Shown piece after piece: positions 3,387 to 20,208 of a stretch of DNA of 45,865 bases. The DNA is from a virus. Position numbers and translations under genes: made by a program. Positions within the stretch are counted from its first letter, which is position 1. Each line of letters begins with the position of its first letter. The notes under the pieces are model-generated. The model saw nothing but the letters and a program-made list of their open reading frames with translations. It ran no database searches and was not told the DNA's origin. The stretch spans positions 1 through 45,865 of the IMG/VR virus record IMGVR_UViG_3300010413_000190. The stretch is one strand, 5' to 3'.

Positions 3387-3833
3387 TTATGTTTTCGGTT
3401 TCTTTTTGGGTGGTGGTATATAAACTTGATGTTCAGACGATGCCCACCGACAAATACGTTCAATATAACTGTCATCGGCAACCATAAATTCAATTGTTGA
3501 CATTTTGGTTGTCGTACCACCTATTTTGGCACCTGGCTTTACTTTGCTATCAACCGGGTTAAAGTGTAGTTTTAGATCTTCATGCATATCTTCTGGATTG
3601 TCGTGTCCAAAATAATCGGCTAATATAGGTATAACAATTTTCCAATAATAAGCGTTTTGAAGGTTTGAACGTTTCTTCTTGTGCTTACATATAATGATAT
3701 CAAGGCGCTGACCAATCTTAAATGTTTGTATCCATCGGCTGATACCCTCTTTATCACCAGGAGCATATTGAATTGTTTTCTTATCCTTGCCCTGAATAAC
3801 CTTTCCATCAAATATCGGATCTTGTGGCTTCAT
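3387..3833 (-). CDS. NinB-like recombination-associated protein
   Basis: A 148-residue basic protein. The segment RSNLQNAYYWKIVIPILADYFG has the N-Q-N-x-x-x-W helix seen in phage NinB-like proteins, which act with recombination systems. The ATG overlaps the stop of the upstream nuclease gene (ATGA), and the gene sits in a block with a Sak4-like ATPase and an exonuclease. The C-terminus is a lysine/proline tail. The family assignment rests on one motif and context and is tentative. Confidence 0.5.
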   Translation of the reverse strand: MKPQDPIFDGKVIQGKDKKTIQYAPGDKEGISRWIQTFKIGQRLDIIICKHKKKRSNLQNAYYWKIVIPILADYFGHDNPEDMHEDLKLHFNPVDSKVKPGAKIGGTTTKMSTIEFMVADDSYIERICRWASSEHQVYIPPPKKKPKT

Positions 3834-4459
3834 TTCCTAACTCTTTCATACAATTCAAGCATTTCAGGGCAATTTTCACGAATGAATTTTAATAGATTAT
3901 AGATACCTGTCTCAATATCTGAGATCATTATAGGGTATCGATACATCTTAATTGAATATGAATCGGTGATCGTTATTTCATTATCTTTCTTTTTTCCGTG
4001 AAATATAATATACTCAAAAACATCCGCATTAAAAATATCAAGATAGCATCTCCATTGAAGGCTTTCAAAATAGGTATCAAGATTCGGCTTAAAAGTAAGT
4101 TTATAGTCCAGTATTTTATTGCCCGTTATGCCGTCGCATTTGCCCGTTAAGCGTACCTCGGTTCCATCTATATGATAAGCCTTGCTCGCTCTAATCTCAC
4201 GAATTTGAGGTAATGTGACGCTTACATCACACAAAAAACGGAATATATGTCCATGGCGTTCTATAAAATCAAATCCATTAACGCAACTCGCTTTCTTTGG
4301 CGGATGATTTTCAAATATAGAATGCAAAGCGGTTCCGGCTAGCATGAGTTCATTGGGTGCTTCGGTGTGTTTCAGTCTTTTTGACAATTCAGCAGCGGTC
4401 ATCGATTCTATTTTATGATACCATATATATGAATCAAGGTCTGTTACGTGTAATTTCAT
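3830..4459 (-). CDS. PD-(D/E)XK exonuclease (RecB/Cas4-like)
   Basis: A 209-residue nuclease. The core reads RLTGKCDG, then ILDYKLTFK, then SLQWRCYLDIF. This gives the acidic residue of GKCDG, the D-x-K pair of LDYK and the Q-x-x-x-Y helix of RecB/Cas4 nucleases. Such enzymes resect DNA ends for single-strand annealing. It overlaps both neighbours by ATGA, so ATPase, nuclease and NinB-like protein are made together. Confidence 0.75.
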   Translation of the reverse strand: MKLHVTDLDSYIWYHKIESMTAAELSKRLKHTEAPNELMLAGTALHSIFENHPPKKASCVNGFDFIERHGHIFRFLCDVSVTLPQIREIRASKAYHIDGTEVRLTGKCDGITGNKILDYKLTFKPNLDTYFESLQWRCYLDIFNADVFEYIIFHGKKKDNEITITDSYSIKMYRYPIMISDIETGIYNLLKFIRENCPEMLELYERVRK

Positions 4460-5352
4460 ACTGTCTCTATGTATCCGTTATCTTTATCATACTTAAAACC
4501 AGCATCGGTAGCCTTTTTGTGTAAAGCAGACTTCAGAATTGTAACAACCGCTTTGTCGGCTTTTTTAACCTCTTTGATCATCTTGTTAAAATGGTCAGCG
4601 GTATGATTTTCATCGATCATTGAAAGATAATCGGCTATGATTTTTTGACGTCTGGCCTGTTCTTCGGTCATTGAATTGAGTTTTTCCTTGATCGAATCAA
4701 TGATATCTGCAAGAAAGCTATTCGATTCTGTGATTTTGGGGATAATCAAAGGTTCAAATTGGCCAGGGTTTTTTCCGAATGCGATATCAGATGGAGAAAA
4801 ATTCAGAATTCTTTTTCCGTTTTCGATTAAGATTCTACCCATTGCATCGGCTGATTTGTAAATTTCATTCTTTGATCCACCTTGAACATCGAGCCGCTCA
4901 ATGAGATCGTCCCCTTTTCGTTCTTCGGATGAATGCGCTATTAGAACAACATCCTTTCCGATGAATTTCAGCATTTTCAACCATGATGTGAACTCAGCCT
5001 TGAGTTGACCATAGCCTTGTAAAGTGAGGGCACCACCATAACCCATTTTCGGGTTTCGTTTTATAATATCGACCGTTAGCATATCAAGAGCACGACCAGC
5101 AGTATCAACTATTACCGTTTTGTATGGTTCAAGATCTTCTGGTGTGACGTCTTTAACATCAGGCCATGAACTCGGTATTACCGTATCATTCCTTATGGCA
5201 GATCGATGTGAACCGGAATCGAAGTCAAAAAGCAGCGGCAAATTAGATGAAAATCCGAGTGTGGTTTTTCCAAGGCCAGGGTTTGAATAAATTGCAATAA
5301 CAATTTGATCAACCTGTATCGGATCATCTGATTTTATTATCTTGAGTGCCAT
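4456..5352 (-). CDS. Sak4-like single-strand annealing ATPase (AAA_24)
   Basis: A 298-residue RecA-fold ATPase. Walker A is NPGLGKTT (about 26-33), followed by LLFDFDSGSHRS, a hallmark of phage AAA_24/Sak4 proteins. Walker B is TVIVDTAG. Sak4 proteins promote annealing in phage recombination, usually beside an SSB or exonuclease. A well-placed AAAGGAGAA ribosome site precedes the ATG at 5352. It is the first gene of the recombination block. Confidence 0.8.
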   Translation of the reverse strand: MALKIIKSDDPIQVDQIVIAIYSNPGLGKTTLGFSSNLPLLFDFDSGSHRSAIRNDTVIPSSWPDVKDVTPEDLEPYKTVIVDTAGRALDMLTVDIIKRNPKMGYGGALTLQGYGQLKAEFTSWLKMLKFIGKDVVLIAHSSEERKGDDLIERLDVQGGSKNEIYKSADAMGRILIENGKRILNFSPSDIAFGKNPGQFEPLIIPKITESNSFLADIIDSIKEKLNSMTEEQARRQKIIADYLSMIDENHTADHFNKMIKEVKKADKAVVTILKSALHKKATDAGFKYDKDNGYIETV

Positions 5353-5395
5353 AAATTCTCCTTTCAGTTAATTCATTTTCTGGCATGACACCTCC

Positions 5396-5692
5396 CTATC
5401 TACCTAAAATAAGTGTTCCATCCTCACACCCGCAATCATTACCACGCCATAGGTACGGTTCCCAAGTTGGGAACCTTTTACCGCATTTCATATCACAACG
5501 GATTGTAACAGGTCCTTCAATGTCGAGAAAATCATCATTTCCACATATTGGACACCCAGGATCTGATCCACTGAAAGGCGCTTCAAGTTCATCAGGATTA
5601 CCGATCCATCCACAGCATTGGCACTCAATTAGTTCTTTTTCTTCGACCGGATTTAAACCGGCTAATTTGGCTACTGTTTGCATTGATAACAT
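5396..5692 (-). CDS. Multi-zinc-ribbon protein
   Basis: A 98-residue protein with several metal-binding pairs: CQCCGW, CPICGN, CDMKCG and CGCEDG. They suggest two zinc ribbons in tandem. AAGGAG lies just upstream of ATG 5692. Unlike the next genes upstream, its stop (TAG) is not inside an attC-like core, so it marks the downstream end of the cassette-like array. Function unknown. Confidence 0.65.
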   Translation of the reverse strand: MLSMQTVAKLAGLNPVEEKELIECQCCGWIGNPDELEAPFSGSDPGCPICGNDDFLDIEGPVTIRCDMKCGKRFPTWEPYLWRGNDCGCEDGTLILGR

Positions 5693-5769
5693 ATTGACTC
5701 CTTAAAGAATGAAGCGTGGGAAATATCCGAATTTTTCACCTTGCATGACTTTCCTTTGAGTAAACAATC

Positions 5770-5802
5770 CCGTAACGATCCACCTTTCATTTGGGGTTAA
5801 CC
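5770..5802 (-). repeat. Degenerate attC-like palindrome (site g)
   Basis: A short weak palindrome with ends CCGTAAC and GTTAACC. The TAA stop of the 5797-6018 gene lies in the second end. Arms pair poorly. I include it only because it continues the series of better sites to its right. Confidence 0.3.
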
Positions 5803-6018
5803 GGATGCGGCCCGGTGTCCGCCCTCCGCTTCAAAATTGCAGTCCTTTTGAGCATCGACTTCAACCTGTGGTTGGAGCGCTTTACTGAGTTCAGATGCAC
5901 ATACTCTAATAGCTCTCGCTTCGCCCAACATGCGATCCTGTATTAATTTGGGCCTTGACTGTGCATTTCTTTCATACCGAGTGGCCCTACTTTCCCAACG
6001 CGCAATCAATTCTCTCAT
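5797..6018 (-). CDS. Small arginine-rich cassette protein
   Basis: A 73-residue charged, probably helical protein (RELIARWESRATRYERNAQ) of unknown function. The GAGGGACT ribosome site precedes ATG 6018. The stop TAA lies inside an inverse-core-like GGTTAAC, as in the other cassette genes. The leading core (GTTCCAC on the gene strand) does not fully complement it, so this cassette is degenerate. GC-rich 3' end (GGHRAASG). Confidence 0.5.
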   Translation of the reverse strand: MRELIARWESRATRYERNAQSRPKLIQDRMLGEARAIRVCASELSKALQPQVEVDAQKDCNFEAEGGHRAASG

Positions 6019-6031
6019 AGTCCCTCCAATG

Positions 6032-6145
6032 GTGGAACTAAGGGGTGACGTGTTGATTGCCCCCCCATAGGTCCACGTTCTTTAAAAATTTAAATTGTTT
6101 TGAGACGGTACTTTCACGCCATCCCTCTTAAGTGACAGGTTATAC
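6032..6145 (-). repeat. attC-like palindrome (site f)
   Basis: A 114-bp imperfect palindrome. On the gene strand it opens with inverse core GTATAAC, which holds the stop of the 6140 gene. Inner arms GGGATGGCGTG and CACGTCACCCC pair with bulges. The far core (GTTCCAC) is degenerate. Confidence 0.45.
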
Positions 6146-6475
6146 CCGTTGCCGGTATTTCCACTGACTACGGATTTTCTCAAGCCGTTTTATAGCCCTT
6201 TCGGGCAATTCATACCTGTCATACCAAACGCCACCATATTTGACTCTGCTTGCACACTGAGACGCAACAGCCCGAAGATACAACCGCGATAATTTCTTAT
6301 ACTTTTCGAGCTTACGAACAAGGTGTTTGGTCGATGGTACATCCCTTCCGGCTCCAAGCATACCGCCGGAATAACCACAGAACGGACACCAGTATTCCGC
6401 ACCGATGAAAGCGAATGTCCAAATCAAGGGAACCTTATAGTACTGATGGCTTTCACAGATTTTAATCTCTTTCAT
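6140..6475 (-). CDS. Cassette gene: zinc-binding protein
   Basis: A 111-residue protein. The N-terminal half has C-x7-H-type residues and a CPFCGYSGG knuckle; the C-terminal half is basic and helical (KLEKYKKLSRLYLRAV), which suggests nucleic-acid or RNA binding. The TAA stop lies in the GTATAAC inverse core. Its leading core upstream of the start is GTTATAC, the exact complement, as expected for an integron-type cassette. Function unknown. Confidence 0.6.
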   Translation of the reverse strand: MKEIKICESHQYYKVPLIWTFAFIGAEYWCPFCGYSGGMLGAGRDVPSTKHLVRKLEKYKKLSRLYLRAVASQCASRVKYGGVWYDRYELPERAIKRLEKIRSQWKYRQRV

Positions 6476-6487
6476 AAATCACCAAGG

Positions 6488-6571
6488 GTATAACGGTGGA
6501 ACTGAGCCACCGACCTAAGTTATTGAGTCAACCCGGTACTATTCCCGGTTGGCTCAAGTGAATGGTTAGGC
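6488..6571 (-). repeat. attC-like palindrome (site a)
   Basis: An 84-bp site. On the gene strand: inverse core GCCTAAC (perfect RYYYAAC), arms TTGAGCCAACCGGG and CCGGGTTGACTCAA, a second hairpin CGGTGG/CCACCG, and core GTTATAC. The TAA of the 6566 gene is inside the inverse core. There is no U-tract, so it is not an ordinary terminator. Confidence 0.6.
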
Positions 6572-6850
6572 AGCATACGCACATTCAAATTCGCTGCCAA
6601 CAGTTTCCCAAAGATCCCCAAAACAAATACACTCTAAACCCTGTACGTAAGCCTCATCACGGACATCCTGACATACCACACAGGTTTTCCAAGTCGCAAT
6701 TTCCCCATCCCAAATACCAGTAAATCTATAATACTTTTCACCAGGATCAATGCTTGAGCCGCACTCACAGCACATATGCTGCTTTCGTGCTTTTGGTGTA
6801 CTCTCCCAATATACGGATGGTGAATCATCTATGCTGCATGAACAACACAT
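6566..6850 (-). CDS. Cassette gene: cysteine-rich zinc-binding protein
   Basis: A 94-residue protein counted from the methionine at 6850 (MCCSCSIDD). A longer frame to 6910 would run through the attC-like palindrome and is rejected. Metal pairs: CCSC, CCECGSSI and CVVCQDV, with aromatic YYRFTGIWDG between, a layout met in small phage proteins of unknown role. The leading core GTTAGGCAGC and trailing GCTGCCTAAC are 10-bp perfect complements flanking the gene. Confidence 0.65.
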   Translation of the reverse strand: MCCSCSIDDSPSVYWESTPKARKQHMCCECGSSIDPGEKYYRFTGIWDGEIATWKTCVVCQDVRDEAYVQGLECICFGDLWETVGSEFECAYAA

Positions 6851-6865
6851 GGTAAACCCTTTGCT

Positions 6866-6990
6866 GCCTAACGTCTGCGGCTGACCGGTGCGGGGGCTAC
6901 AGCGCACCACAATGAAGCCATTGCCCTGACTCCGCTGTAGTTACTGGCACGGAGTCAGGCCCCCGCATCGGGTCAAGCCGCTGGTTATGC
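6866..6990 (-). repeat. attC-like palindrome (site b, best example)
   Basis: A 125-bp site bounded on the plus strand by GCCTAAC and GTTATGC. Long arms GCGGCTGACCGGTGCGGGGG and the complement of CCCCCGCATCGGGTCAAGCC pair with an extra unpaired base in one arm, like the extrahelical bases of attC. The variable loop carries a further 9-bp perfect hairpin CTGACTCCG/CGGAGTCAG. Much more GC-rich than its surroundings. Confidence 0.65.
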
Positions 6991-7161
6991 GTTATATGAT
7001 TCTCCTGTTTTTTGCCACTCTCCACCACAGTCACACAACCCGCCCACATTACAATGTGGGTAATCCTCTCTTTCAGCACCGCATTTTGAACAGGTATAAA
7101 TATACATTAGATTAAGTTCTGGGTCCATTTCTGCTTCTTCTCTTGTTGAGTATTCTCTCAT
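6985..7161 (-). CDS. Cassette gene: small zinc-ribbon protein
   Basis: A 58-residue protein starting MREYSTREEAEMDPE. Metal ligands are CSKCGAE and CDCGG. GAAAGGGAAAC precedes the ATG at 7161; an extension to 7353 would cross a palindrome and the next gene. The stop lies in GCATAAC, the exact complement of the leading core GTTATGC at 7185-7191 (minus strand). Function unknown. Confidence 0.6.
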   Translation of the reverse strand: MREYSTREEAEMDPELNLMYIYTCSKCGAEREDYPHCNVGGLCDCGGEWQKTGESYNA

Positions 7162-7184
7162 TTTAGTTTCCCTTTCACCCAAAG

Positions 7185-7240
7185 GCATAACGTGTTGATC
7201 AGGCGTGAGCTTGCGAATCGCCTGAATTAACTGGTTATCT
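7185..7240 (-). repeat. attC-like palindrome (site c)
   Basis: A 56-bp site. Plus-strand ends GCATAAC and GTTATCT; arms TTGATCAGGCG and CGCCTGAATTAA with one bulged base; loop TGAGCTTGCGAAT. The stop of the 7235 gene is inside the inverse core. Confidence 0.6.
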
Positions 7241-7429
7241 GACCCTCTTCTCGGTAATTTCAAACTCATGAATGTCGTATTTGTCTTTGTCTTGATAAAT
7301 ATTATGAACATTTGATGATCTTGCGCTTTCCTCTGATGAGAAGTCATATTCATCGTGATAGGCTCGTGAATACACCCCCTCGTAACGTTTATCTTTTTTG
7401 TTCCATATTCTAAATACTCTCCGTGGCAT
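7235..7429 (-). CDS. Cassette gene: small charged protein
   Basis: A 64-residue protein, MPRRVFRIWNKKDKRYEGVY then a region rich in S/D/K/Y. The start resembles small phage proteins of the VxRIYN/W-K type but I do not recognise a named family. AAAGGGGAATAA precedes the ATG. The leading core GTTATCT (7445-7451) exactly complements the trailing inverse core AGATAAC that contains the stop. Confidence 0.6.
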   Translation of the reverse strand: MPRRVFRIWNKKDKRYEGVYSRAYHDEYDFSSEESARSSNVHNIYQDKDKYDIHEFEITEKRVR

Positions 7430-7444
7430 ATTTATTCCCCTTTC

Positions 7445-7501
7445 AGATAACGTTGAAATCAGGGGTGCGCTTTTTGCATCCCCTGGATTGATTTGTTATG
7501 C
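7445..7501 (-). repeat. attC-like palindrome (site d)
   Basis: A 57-bp site. Plus-strand ends AGATAAC and GTTATGC; arms AATCAGGGGTGC and GCATCCCCTGGATT pair with single unpaired bases on both sides; short T-rich loop. The stop of the 7496 gene lies inside GCATAAC. Confidence 0.6.
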
Positions 7502-7837
7502 CCGCTCTTCGTCAAAAGTTAAGCCAATAGCGTAACACCAAACCCATGACGAACCATCTACATATAGACGCGGGAAATTCCATATGTTCTGATCTTCATT
7601 TCCCATGTAGCGGACCTTTTCGAGTGGTATCCCCGGCATTTGTATTTCATGGCAGACATTCTCTTTCCACAACAAAAAGGCGTATCTACCTTCCCCATAA
7701 TCATTATCAGGAATACGGATAAATTTAACACCGTCAACATTATTATCGGTTATGAAATGCTTAATGTTTTCGGTCGCATCGGCCTCAGACGTATCGGAAA
7801 CCGGTCCAGAACCTGGATTTATTGCTACCATCACCAT
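7496..7837 (-). CDS. Cassette gene: conserved hypothetical (IAINPGSGPV type)
   Basis: A 113-residue protein. The start VAINPGSGPV and the end NFPRLYVDGSSWVWCYA strike me as a recurring small-protein family of phages and mobile cassettes, without known function; this is from memory. AGAAAGGAGAAAT precedes the ATG. The leading core GTTATGC (7863-7869) exactly complements the trailing GCATAAC. No enzyme motif seen. Confidence 0.65.
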   Translation of the reverse strand: MVMVAINPGSGPVSDTSEADATENIKHFITDNNVDGVKFIRIPDNDYGEGRYAFLLWKENVCHEIQMPGIPLEKVRYMGNEDQNIWNFPRLYVDGSSWVWCYAIGLTFDEERA

Positions 7838-7862
7838 TTATATTTCTCCTTTCTGCCAAAAG

Positions 7863-7909
7863 GCATAACCATTGATTATCAGGTACATTTGCCCTGATAA
7901 TTGTTACGT
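7863..7909 (-). repeat. attC-like palindrome (site e)
   Basis: A 47-bp site. Plus-strand ends GCATAAC and GTTACGT; arms TTATCAGG and CCTGATAA are 8-bp perfect; loop TACATTTGC. It is the rightmost clear site. I could not find a matching leading core for the cassette further upstream. Confidence 0.5.
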
Positions 7910-7924
7910 TTTTGTATTAATCGT

Positions 7925-8276
7925 TTCCACAGTTCGGTCTTGGCAAGGTACGCGATCTTTTCAACCTGTGATTAAGCTATGCCATTTGGTTTCGCAGACG
8001 AACTATATTGCGAGACCCCCTACCCGACCCAATGCCGTATCGGGAGTCACGCGGGTTAAATTGGGTGCCGGGGATACTCGGATCGGATCCTAATCTCCCC
8101 TCCGTAAGATGCGCCTTGCATCACCACAACTTGGCGTTGTTTCCCTCTCCCCGGCATATCAAAGAATACTTAGCTAAATCCTCTTACCCGATGTGCCTCG
8201 CCTCAACACGGCTTCTCATCGGCTTCGACCATTTAACTCTCAGCTTGGTCGGTCAGGTTTCCCGGCCTGATCCAAA
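7925..8276 (-). ncRNA. Candidate structured RNA element
   Basis: About 350 bases without a credible gene, clearly more GC-rich than its surroundings. Plus-strand pairings: TGCCGGGGA (8064-8072) with TCCCCGGCA about 80 bases on, enclosing hairpins GATGC/GCATC and CAAC/GTTG; ACCCAAT/ATTGGGT; CCGATG/CATCGG; TCAGG/CCTGA. One outer helix (AGTTAAAT with ATTTAGCT) needs a G-U pair and works only as minus-strand RNA. This matches the direction of the surrounding operon. I do not recognise the class. Confidence 0.4.
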
Positions 8277-8939
8277 TACCCTGGGGCATGGGGGCCGGTA
8301 GGACTGTGGTGCTATGGTTTGCGGTTCTCCCTTCAATTTGGGTGCGTCCCGCGTCAATTGTTTATCTAATATATACATATATCCAAACGGAAGATTTCCC
8401 GATGCTATTTTTTTCCAATGCTTGATTACTTCTGGGTTTGCACTATATCCAACAGACCTATAATAGGTTGATACATAGCCACCAAATGGGGACGAAAAAT
8501 CACGAAATAAAATTTCTTTCCGTTTTAATTCTGAATCCGTTTCAAAACGTTTTTTATTTGTGTGTTCTTTAAGTTTTTCTGTTGCTTCATTTCGTAACCA
8601 ATCAAGTGTTGATTGGTCAATAGTTGGCAAAAAATTTGTTTCGTATTGAGGATAGAGGGCGTTTTCATAATTCACAATCTTGAAAGGGCCTTTTATAGAC
8701 CGTGTTCTCCTTAATATGTCGAGATCTGCACAGCCAGCTTGAAAACCTGTTGTACCAAGAGAACCAGCAATATAATTGAATGCGGCTGTTGCAGCCAATG
8801 ACATTGAATAGGCAGATGTACCATAATCGTGTTCCCTATTGACCAGAGATTGAATATATTCTGTGAGTTCTTCAATCGATTTGATCCAAGGTACTTTGTG
8901 TTCCCTCATTTCTTGTTCTGTCTGAGCTTCACATTTCAT
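8253..8939 (-). CDS. Conserved phage protein (HDYGTSAYSMSLAATAAFNY type)
   Basis: A 228-residue soluble protein. The segment REHDYGTSAYSMSLAA, then GTTGFQAGCADLDILRRTR, then a PQYE motif is, from memory, a recurrent phage family of unknown function. A possible internal start is MREHKVPW. The C-terminal 20 or so residues (RPPCPRVFGSGRET) are read from the GC-rich structured element, which suggests the original stop was lost or the element inserted at the 3' end. It starts 2 bp after the previous stop. Confidence 0.65.
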   Translation of the reverse strand: MKCEAQTEQEMREHKVPWIKSIEELTEYIQSLVNREHDYGTSAYSMSLAATAAFNYIAGSLGTTGFQAGCADLDILRRTRSIKGPFKIVNYENALYPQYETNFLPTIDQSTLDWLRNEATEKLKEHTNKKRFETDSELKRKEILFRDFSSPFGGYVSTYYRSVGYSANPEVIKHWKKIASGNLPFGYMYILDKQLTRDAPKLKGEPQTIAPQSYRPPCPRVFGSGRET

Positions 8940-8941
8940 AC

Positions 8942-9076
8942 TTACCCCCTCTGTGTATGGGTGGATCTGTTAATTATTCCCAACCAAATATCCCGACGCC
9001 TATGCGCTGCTTTTAGATCAGGTGCAACACATATAAATATCTGTCCGTCTTTATGGGTATATTCGTATCTTAGCAT
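8942..9076 (-). CDS. Small hypothetical protein
   Basis: A 44-residue frame, MLRYEYTHKDGQIFICVAPD to STHTQRG, ending 2 bp before the next gene. The frame stays open to 9424, but that extension is a translation of the inverted-repeat element and is compositionally odd (rich in R, S, P and C), so I prefer the short form. The ribosome site is weak (AAGAAAAAG). Function unknown. Confidence 0.35.
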   Translation of the reverse strand: MLRYEYTHKDGQIFICVAPDLKAAHRRRDIWLGIINRSTHTQRG

Positions 9077-9120
9077 CTTTTTCTTTAGAAACTTGTGATA
9101 AAAGGGTTTTGAGGTTTCGG

Positions 9121-9400
9121 TGTATGAGACGAAAGCCGGGTCTCTATCCAGGCCCGTTGTGTCAGGCACGCTCCCCCCAAGAGGTCCGGGCTTTCGACTG
9201 TTGCACAAAGCAGAGCAGATGCCCCCGGAGGCATGGGTTACACACATTGCCAGTTTCGCTACTTTCCGTTCGCTACATGGAATTCTCATGGCCGGATCGT
9301 CGTTATGACTACGGCTCAACTCGCTAATAGGTTTCGCGTCCTGGATGCGCGTCCTGTTTTCCAAGGCTTTCGATTTTCGCATCACCGGCTTTCGTCTCAT
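9121..9400 (-). ncRNA. Candidate structured RNA closed by an 18-bp inverted repeat
   Basis: A 280-base, GC-rich element. GTATGAGACGAAAGCCGG at 9121-9138 and its perfect reverse complement at 9383-9400 close it. A third partial copy, CCGGGCTTTCG, lies at about 9187. Internal hairpins include ATGCC/GGCAT, GTC/GAC and CGCG/CGCG. It begins a few bases after the stop of the upstream gene. There is no flanking target duplication and no transposase, so a structured RNA is preferred over a MITE, but a MITE is not excluded. Confidence 0.4.
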
Positions 9401-9413
9401 ACTGTTTTTAGGA

Positions 9414-9716
9414 TTATTCTTCATTCATAAAATCCACGTATTTTTTAGCACAAGCCAAATCTATTTCAGACATAAATCCGAAATTAAATCTACACCATTT
9501 TCCATCAACCATTGTGGTAACGTGAATCTGGCCGCAATCTCTACAAATTGATACTCTATATCGACCGCTTTCAAATTCTGGTTGAACCCATTTATTTTCT
9601 TTATCGTGGAAACCCTTTTTTAATTCTATTGACCATGTCGAAGCAGCGATAAAGCGCATGTGTTCATGTTTACAGGTTGTTGGATCGGTGCATTTTATTT
9701 TTGGGTGGTTAATCAT
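9414..9716 (-). CDS. Zinc-binding hypothetical protein
   Basis: A 100-residue protein with C/H-rich motifs CTDPTTCKHEH and CRDCGQIH, consistent with a zinc ribbon with histidine ligands. The start at 9716 overlaps the upstream gene by 8 bp, so the two are co-translated. Its stop is followed within about 15 bases by the inverted-repeat element. Function unknown. Confidence 0.6.
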   Translation of the reverse strand: MINHPKIKCTDPTTCKHEHMRFIAASTWSIELKKGFHDKENKWVQPEFESGRYRVSICRDCGQIHVTTMVDGKWCRFNFGFMSEIDLACAKKYVDFMNEE

Positions 9717-10080
9717 GGCTCAATGCCTGAGACTTTTCTTGAATCTTACTAAAATCGATTCTCGGTAAAACTGTCAAATAACCCTTTTTAATTAAGGCCC
9801 CGAGTGCCCTTAAAAGCCAATTCTGAGCGTTGCTTTCTATTTGATAATCCGTATAATCTTCATATCTATGGCCCCACTTTTCTTTTTCATGGTCATAATA
9901 TGGAGTCCAGCACCTTTGTTCTCTTTGGACTTTTGTTTTATATATTGTTATCAATTCGTCATGTTGGACGTGCTGACCGTCTTTGAGTTTTTTACAAATT
10001 AATATCAGAAGAGCACGCTGACCGTCATTAACACCTTTCAGCTTTGATCCATTAAATATATTTTCTGGTAAGTTTTCCAT
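9709..10080 (-). CDS. First gene of the leftward operon; small wHTH-like protein
   Basis: A 123-residue protein, taking MENLPENIFNGSK at 10080 as the start. A frame to 10143 would cover the promoter and operator and is rejected. The core GQRALLILICKKLKDG and the end LGALIKKGYLTVLPRI suggest a winged-helix fold. The promoter -10 lies about 10 bases upstream of the ATG, so the mRNA is almost leaderless. Possible early regulator; no family recognised. Confidence 0.55.
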   Translation of the reverse strand: MENLPENIFNGSKLKGVNDGQRALLILICKKLKDGQHVQHDELITIYKTKVQREQRCWTPYYDHEKEKWGHRYEDYTDYQIESNAQNWLLRALGALIKKGYLTVLPRIDFSKIQEKSQALSHD

Positions 10081-18422: not shown

Positions 18423-19046
18423 ATGAAACAGATTTCATTCATTTTAACCATTTTGTTTTTGCTGTGTATATCGGCAAATGCCTTTGCTTTCGGTGAACCT
18501 CATCATCCGAACTGGAAAAGATATGGAATTGTTCCTATGCCATTGACATCGTTCATTAATAATGACGGCACTAGGATAGTCGAATCAGAAGCAGAGGGCG
18601 CAGCATCAGGACCAGCAGGAAAAGCACTTTTAAGTGTAAATAGCGGCAAGCCATGCATAATGTTAGGTGCTGTAGGTCTTGCACATGACCACGACAATAC
18701 AATTATAACATCTGTTCCCCTTCCGCCAGATTATTGGAGAAACGGAATAGTTAAGGCGATAGCAGATAATAGTGTTGCGACTAATGTAAATTTAAAGTGG
18801 TATTTTAAAGTTAGCACCGGTTCTACATTAGCCACTTCAGGAGTTAGACAGGCTGATGTAACAGCCACAGCAGGAACTACCGAGGAGCTAACATTCACAC
18901 CAAATGTAGATGCTGAACCACAAACAATGGCAGAAGGGGCTAGCGTTGTTTTTGAGGTCGGACGGAATGATACAAGCACACAGGCAGGAAAGGTGATGCG
19001 GTTCTATGAATTTTATTTCCAATACGAGAAAAAGACAGATTCTTAA
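18423..19046 (+). CDS. Exported protein, possible virion or surface protein
   Basis: A 207-residue protein. Sec signal MKQISFILTILFLLCISANA, with cleavage near AFA|FG. The mature part is beta-rich (LKWYFKVSTGSTLATSGVRQ, ASVVFEVGRNDTSTQAG) and ends in aromatic FYEFYFQYEKK, like small virion decoration proteins. It may be a virion component or a secreted surface protein. Strong AGGAGAAT ribosome site. Confidence 0.55.
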   Translation: MKQISFILTILFLLCISANAFAFGEPHHPNWKRYGIVPMPLTSFINNDGTRIVESEAEGAASGPAGKALLSVNSGKPCIMLGAVGLAHDHDNTIITSVPLPPDYWRNGIVKAIADNSVATNVNLKWYFKVSTGSTLATSGVRQADVTATAGTTEELTFTPNVDAEPQTMAEGASVVFEVGRNDTSTQAGKVMRFYEFYFQYEKKTDS

Positions 19047-20208
19047 TGGTTTAATCTATATACTATTAGTTATAGCCATGACACAAAGACCGCCTTTTTT
19101 TGGATATTACAATTTAAGCGAAAACATAAGATTTAATATGAGCTTTATCTTTATGTGGGTTACTATTTTCGCTTTCGGTCTTTATATAGCGTCTGAGATA
19201 AATTTATGGATAGGATTTTTTTTGTTCTATTCCATGATTTCAGCGAATATATATAACACAGAAGAATCAGGCGCTGCACTATTATCAGTCATACTCGGAG
19301 CCATATTATTCGTTACGATCTTTCATGTTTACAATAAAAATGCAATTATTACAATATTCTGTCTGTTTTCGGTTGCCAATTTCATCTTCATAATAGCCCA
19401 ACTATTAAATCTTGACCTAACCATAATAATAAACAAGAAACTGTTTCTTCCAGATCGTCAGATGAGAATGGGTATTTTGGATAATAGAAACTCCCTGTCA
19501 GCCGCATTCGCATTCTGTCTTCCTGTACTATTCGACAAAAAGCTATGGTACGGAATTCCCATAGTCTTTGCTGGCTTGATAATGGCTAAAGCAGTTGGTG
19601 GAGTTATTTCTACAATCCCGGCATTAACATATTATTCGTATGTATGGCTTGGAAAAAAAGCTATAATCATGTTTATTATCATAGCTTGCGGATTGTTCTT
19701 ATATATCAAATTCATAGACCATCCTGATTATAAATCCAGGTGGGCGTGTTGGAAGATGTACGGAGAAATCAGGCAAAACGATTATGTGCTTGTGAACGAC
19801 AATAAAGATTATGGCGCGATAAGAAATACGTCACTATTCGGGGCCGGGCTTGGACACTGGAAAAAGATATTTAATCTTCGTGACACAAGATCTAATCGTT
19901 GTTTTGTGTGTGAAAAAATTTCTGAATGGTCCGGGTCAAATAGACCCATGATCTATTTGCAAGCCCACAATGAGTTTATTCAAACGGACATGGAAATGGG
20001 AAAGATAGGTCTTTTGTTAATCATCGGATATTTAATAAACGTTCTGGTAAGAGTTCGTAATATTAATGATCCAAGACCGGCCCTGATCCTATTAGCGGTT
20101 ATTGTGGACTCAATGGTATATTTTCCGTTTCATATACCCATTCTTGCAATGTTAATTATATTGAGTATGGTATGGTTAGAAAAGGAATTACAGCAACAAT
20201 ATTCATAG
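19006..20208 (+). CDS. Wzy-like O-antigen ligase/polymerase membrane protein
   Basis: A 400-residue protein with about ten transmembrane helices. GILDNRNSLSAAFAFCLPVL, then the large periplasmic loop with FGAGLGHWKKIF and AHNEFIQTDMEMGKIGLLL, match the Wzy_C family that joins or polymerises lipopolysaccharide O-units. Phages use such proteins for seroconversion that blocks superinfection. It overlaps the exported protein gene by 41 bp; the upstream hydrophobic start supports ATG 19006. Enzyme specificity cannot be read. Confidence 0.7.
   Translation: MNFISNTRKRQILNGLIYILLVIAMTQRPPFFGYYNLSENIRFNMSFIFMWVTIFAFGLYIASEINLWIGFFLFYSMISANIYNTEESGAALLSVILGAILFVTIFHVYNKNAIITIFCLFSVANFIFIIAQLLNLDLTIIINKKLFLPDRQMRMGILDNRNSLSAAFAFCLPVLFDKKLWYGIPIVFAGLIMAKAVGGVISTIPALTYYSYVWLGKKAIIMFIIIACGLFLYIKFIDHPDYKSRWACWKMYGEIRQNDYVLVNDNKDYGAIRNTSLFGAGLGHWKKIFNLRDTRSNRCFVCEKISEWSGSNRPMIYLQAHNEFIQTDMEMGKIGLLLIIGYLINVLVRVRNINDPRPALILLAVIVDSMVYFPFHIPILAMLIILSMVWLEKELQQQYS

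Follow-up and report, generated by a model that had tools for sequence, protein, structure and literature searches.

A cassette array of the integron type (CALIN) in the early operon of a podovirus-like phage

Bacteria swap genes by means of small mobile gene cassettes. Arrays of such cassettes that lack an integron integrase (CALINs) were described in phages by Qi et al. in 2023, who reported 17 in 10,705 genomes, including those of Tetrasphaera phage TJE1 (three attC sites), Pseudoalteromonas phage H101 (PH101) and Polaribacter phage P12002L (PMC9892861). We analysed the whole of IMG/VR virus record IMGVR_UViG_3300010413_000190 (45,865 bases, hereafter the window) and found a clear further example; because phage CALINs were already published in 2023, the surprise is tempered. 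Like the published arrays, the one in the window consists of attC cassettes in the same direction, without an integrase, in a phage genome, and a covariance model of bacterial attC sites (R2, see below) finds the three TJE1 sites with scores similar to those in the window. Unlike them, it lies in another phage, carries other genes in five contiguous single-gene cassettes with matching cores in all five, and has one gene family in common with a second viral CALIN; the methyltransferase cassettes highlighted by Qi et al. (PMC9892861) do not occur in it. Sedentary chromosomal integrons of Gammaproteobacteria resemble the array in attC sequence and structure, core complementarity and gene direction, whereas the window has no intI and its cassettes are shorter (260–464 bp; bacterial median 604 bp in the one class surveyed).

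The record encodes podovirus-like structural genes (terminase large subunit, head-tail adaptor, major head and tail proteins), and its adaptor is 34–38% identical to those of the podovirus-like phages Bordetella BPP-1 and Cobetia phage Carin1. A terminase query found no relatives among viral contigs, and relatives of its Sak4 gene in genomes belonged to several groups, indicating no single host group. At 10079 on the plus strand, a repressor-like gene marks the boundary between two gene sets: a leftward one on the minus strand (about 10143 to 2972) and a rightward one that includes a DnaD-like replication gene. The cassettes belong to the leftward set and share its direction. They lie upstream of a Sak4-like ssDNA-annealing gene (AAA_24/RecA-like, 4456..5352, minus strand; AAA_24 E 5e-38), whose homologue in Aggregatibacter phage S1249 is annotated as Sak4-like. 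After it the operon ends with an exonuclease-like or CRISPR-associated-like gene (3830–4459, minus strand; phrog_34697 and phrog_1706 were reported for 3387..4459) and a NinB-like gene (3387–3833, minus strand; phrog_72 NinB). An early-operon setting had been proposed in an earlier note on this DNA, and this collinear arrangement, divergent from the repressor-like gene, bears it out. Directly upstream of the array are about 400 nt of GC-rich, apparently non-coding sequence (7920–8330, minus strand). A long fold is predicted for this stretch (z only −1.44), which has no notable Rfam match and no phage DNA match; the region is possibly a non-coding RNA or an intron remnant truncating the ORF at 8253–8939. 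Elsewhere, 19006–20208 (plus strand) encodes a large multi-membrane-spanning protein that by eye resembles an O-antigen polymerase or ligase. Such a protein is also encoded in viral contig L031 (3264–4658), the second phage with a cassette 4 gene, and neither copy has a PHROG or Pfam match.

The array extends from 7869 to 6024 on the minus strand. It is a real cassette array, narrower than the 5770–7909 first assigned to it, and the gene at 5797–6018 is not a cassette. Cassette 1 (7450..7869, 418 bp) opens with the core GTTATGC (7869–7863), holds an ORF of 113 aa (7837–7496) and is closed by attC1 (7501–7445), in which the inverse core, R'', GCATAAC (7501–7495) is followed by the next core, GTTATCT. 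Cassette 2 (7190..7450, 260 bp; core pair GTTATCT/AGATAAC) holds an ORF of 64 aa (7429–7235), and its attC2 (7240–7185) joins R'' AGATAAC to the core GTTATGC. Cassette 3 (6871..7190, 319 bp; GTTATGC/GCATAAC) encodes a zinc-finger-like protein of 58 aa (7161–6985) and ends in attC3 (6990–6866), which has a long terminal structure between R'' GCATAAC and the core GTTAGGC. Cassette 4 (6493..6871, 378 bp; GTTAGGC/GCCTAAC) encodes a 94-aa member of a Cys-rich phage family (6850–6566), followed by attC4 (6571–6488) with R'' GCCTAAC and the core GTTATAC. Cassette 5 (6029..6493, 464 bp; GTTATAC/GTATAAC) encodes a protein of 111 aa with a CPFCG motif (6475–6140). The site after it (6145–6024) is decayed: the inverse core GTATAAC is intact, while ATTGGAG stands where GTTRRRY is expected and the crossover G is thus replaced by A. 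All of these features are on the minus strand. At least four of the cassette genes have in front of them a purine-rich stretch that resembles a ribosome-binding site.

Complementarity between the core that starts a cassette and the inverse core that ends the same cassette is the trace left by circular cassettes inserting at G/TT. The earlier note had named five such pairs, and both direct reading and a script found every one of them exact; the stop codons were also where it had placed them, as all five cassette genes end on the TAA of the inverse core. By this measure the five units are integron gene cassettes. The chance of an exact core match was 0.07 as judged from core-like pairs elsewhere in the window (3 of 43) and 0.11 as judged from shuffled integron cores, which gives a probability of roughly 2e-6 to 2e-5 for five out of five. 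Similarly, adjacent site pairs showed own-cassette complementarity in 71% of cases in bacterial arrays and 73% in viral arrays, against 11% at random. Within palindromes, such complementarity was found in none of the four in the window and in 16–20% in the arrays surveyed (20% in true integrons).

Hairpins are frequent between small genes in phage operons, and the palindromes could be no more than that: terminators or members of a phage repeat family, with a chance likeness to attC. An attC covariance model had been set beforehand as the test of this point. A strict search for RYYYAAC/GTTRRRY was rejected as a detector because it missed the window sites, whose real cores, such as GCATAAC, deviate from the pattern; a covariance model was therefore built. 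Bacterial attC sites came from arrays adjoining integron integrases (TIGR02249; 137 of 369 over the cut-off), which had been found in genomes of one class, that of an Acinetobacter genome. A first model (R1) comprised 38 bacterial sites with gap-free arm alignment, and the second (R2) was trained on 107 bacterial sites found by the first; the window was absent from both training sets, which held bacterial sites only. On the window, R2 returned four strong minus-strand attC sites, on the strand and with the boundaries that had been predicted: attC1 with 46.6, attC4 with 38.4, attC3 with 29.8 and attC2 with 28.1 bits (E 2e-8 to 3e-4). Apart from these and the decayed distal site (13.9 bits), no part of 4500–9500 reached 7 bits even when the filters were switched off. 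When 621,765 bases were scanned, made up of bacterial loci and of both related and known phages, the 12 matches listed came from the window, viral contig L033 and TJE1, and the 30 viral loci retrieved through the Sak4 gene gave no attC by R2.

Structure agreed with the model. In all four intact sites an inverse core ending in AAC and a core starting with GTT pair with each other, the fifth having lost the G. Folding of the four bottom strands is much stronger than that of shuffled sequences (z −2.8 to −4.6). The extrahelical-type bases claimed earlier were seen in the R2 alignments and single-strand folds as an L''/L' stem with a one-sided unpaired base, together with unpaired spacers and a variable end loop. 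A search of Rfam yielded no match, whether judged by the gathering score or with E≤1. The four sites are thus attC by sequence, structure and covariance model. Scores of 28–47 bits from a model of bacterial attC with a clean background, core complementarity across rather than within hairpins, and four hairpins mutually unrelated in sequence all argue against ordinary terminators or repeats; the covariance-model test refuted that explanation, to which we give almost no credence.

Of the alternating palindromes first described, the four attC sites stand; what speaks for an ordinary hairpin is the first one, of 48 nt (7863–7910, minus strand), just before the G/TTATGC of cassette 1. Its stem folds (z −2.98) and it has no attC match even with model filters off. 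It is possibly a degenerate site, an attG-like target or a terminator. Insertion at attG, a non-classical G/TT target, was described by Loot et al. (2024, Nat Microbiol) for bacterial genomes, according to the citations of that work in PMC12901181 and PMC11023631, and would, as a candidate only, explain cassettes without attI at the entry point 7869/7868. At the other end, the bottom strand of the distal site (6024–6145) folds no better than shuffles (z 0.12) and the site is probably inactive; loss of its crossover G has probably fixed the 3' end of the array.

The record, which may be incomplete, has no integron integrase, as the earlier note had stated, nor any other tyrosine recombinase (no TIGR02249 or PF00589 match). 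With four attC sites within 1.1 kb and no integron integrase in the possibly incomplete record, the array is a CALIN; with no intI in the record, it is not a complete integron. The enzyme would therefore come from the host or from another element. It might be suggested that the hairpins are moved by a phage-encoded recombinase other than an integron integrase, since recombinases are frequent among phage genes and the majority of ORFs in this record have no known function. We consider this very unlikely, as the sites agree with the substrate of bacterial IntI down to details and a search for tyrosine recombinases found no such domain in the record. The phage probably relies on the integrase of its host. 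Borrowing of this kind is plausible by analogy, as Qi et al. tested six phage attC sites and IntI1 recombined five of them (PMC9892861). According to a review, folding of attC sites can take place during phage infection, and infection by dsDNA phages can induce the SOS response, which controls intI (PMC8946536).

Overall, the array is a CALIN of five promoterless cassettes that would have been moved at G/TT by the integrase of a host or co-resident element, with an early phage promoter in place of Pc, an explanation that we consider very probable. Each cassette consists of one small gene and its attC hairpin site. Most likely, site-specific recombination at G/TT brought the cassettes in and rearranged them; its substrate would be folded single-stranded attC bottom strands, and the integron integrase would be expressed by the host or co-resident element. 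The early operon could supply transcription of the cassettes, its promoter substituting for the integron Pc promoter, and the array may still be mobile today.

The cassette proteins have different kinds of relatives. A protein from a Kitasatospora plasmid is related to that of cassette 1 (51%), no relative was found for the product of cassette 2, and a search for viral relatives of these two found none. Cassette 3 gave a weak zf-DPOE match, below the cut-off. The cassette 4 protein matches phrog_7314, phrog_19515 and phrog_28814; its homologues in Arthrobacter, Salmonella and Rhodococcus phages lie in tight operons, and a genome scan with it found no relatives. A 45% identical homologue of cassette 5, in viral contig L235, likewise belongs to an operon and has no attC close to it. 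Viral cassettes as a group did not match phage families clearly more often than bacterial ones (18 families among 67 viral against 10 among 52 bacterial proteins), and the claim of phage genes is therefore made for cassettes 4 and 5 only. Cassette 4 also has a relative in viral contig L031/L033, with a 63–65% identical protein; in L033 it is likewise flanked by attC sites as a cassette, and this contig, which has baseplate genes, has no other tested gene in common with the window. At the DNA level the gene is 69% identical (z 16) and the attC sites are near background (z 3), which fits attC replacement and plain divergence alike. Read from their sequences, the proteins of cassettes 3, 4 and 5 and of the neighbouring operon gene (5396–5692) are small, Cys-rich and zinc-ribbon-like. 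By eye, a helicase/methyltransferase gene of L031 (5–2575; L033 4045–7617) appears to carry an intein-like insertion.

A survey of IMG/VR with one degenerate attC pattern gave at least 120 stretches. Among those listed, R2 confirmed at least 272 sites in the first 80 loci and at least 158 in the other 40, and after removal of duplicates at least 51 loci (TJE1 included; about 50 among the 80 examined) had two or more attC sites. Near these arrays, long ORFs have matches in hallmark families of phages, namely terminases, portals, baseplates and RecT/Bet annealing proteins. The survey suggests that CALINs are common in phages, in a collection that can include misassigned contigs. Among the matches listed, an integron integrase scored over the cut-off in one of 50 viral CALIN records, leaving 49 without intI. 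Matching-core cassettes had a median of 328 bp in viral (n=121) and 604 bp in bacterial arrays (n=59; p about 1e-12), with ORFs of 55 and 132 aa, respectively, the bacterial set being limited to one class and the viral one to a single search pattern, which is biased towards short attC loops. Several viral CALIN loci (L115–L234) also hold RecT/Bet-like ssDNA-annealing genes, and the window holds a Sak4-like one; a link to single-stranded DNA is possible.

Comparison of related phages had been proposed for finding gain or loss at exact crossover points. No close relative of the window phage with an empty or different array site was found, and the breakpoints come from other viral CALINs: where viral loci share DNA, nine alignment ends lie within 3 nt of an attC G/TT against 0.9 expected, and 17 within 8 nt against 2.1 expected, some ends being counted from both partners. 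For example, in L138/L213 and L171/L191 a shared cassette starts at the core and the preceding sequence is unrelated. L147 and L173 are 99.8% identical over 6.8 kb and then diverge inside the same attC loop (L147 13340–13395, L173 1324–1379), with different cassettes past that point; an integrase would not be expected to recombine within the hairpin loop, and therefore other recombination also occurs. This pair would suit an array that is now static, an old piece of a bacterial integron acquired by ordinary or illegitimate phage recombination and later exchanged by homologous recombination (Sak4, annealing). The record without an integrase, the decayed terminal site and the adjoining Sak4-like gene are consistent with such a history, and Qi et al. 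propose illegitimate recombination for some phage CALINs (PMC9892861). However, four of the five sites are intact, the five self-complementary cores indicate little drift, sister arrays break at G/TT, and short cassettes with two genes that have phage homologues are unlike a slice of a typical bacterial array. We consider a static array improbable, though a serious alternative, and favour cassette movement at G/TT by an integrase from outside the phage.

The frequency of CALINs in viral metagenome contigs, the short cassettes, the G/TT breakpoints between phages and the occurrence of cassette genes as operon genes elsewhere go beyond Qi et al. in the literature searched, which included few subscription papers and preprints, and may be known elsewhere. 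Tentatively, phages might keep a cassette pool of their own, in which small phage genes are made into cassettes and exchanged between unrelated phages via host integrases, a proposal that we think more doubtful than not. Hints in this direction are that cassettes 4 and 5 have homologues that are plain operon genes in other phages, that members of the cassette 4 family are cassettes in two phages with no other known relationship, where the attC sites resemble each other no more than at background, that viral cassettes are about half the bacterial size and 49 of 50 records are without intI among the matches listed, and that homology breaks at G/TT. The origin of gene cassettes is an open question, and most work considers bacterial integrons only. 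Intact phage arrays, apparently common and with phage-sized genes, offer a second system for following cassette gain and loss. They would provide a route for small-gene exchange between phages and bacteria, possibly of host-takeover or anti-defence genes, and if a phage cassette pool exists, new integron cassettes may arise in phages, among other places.
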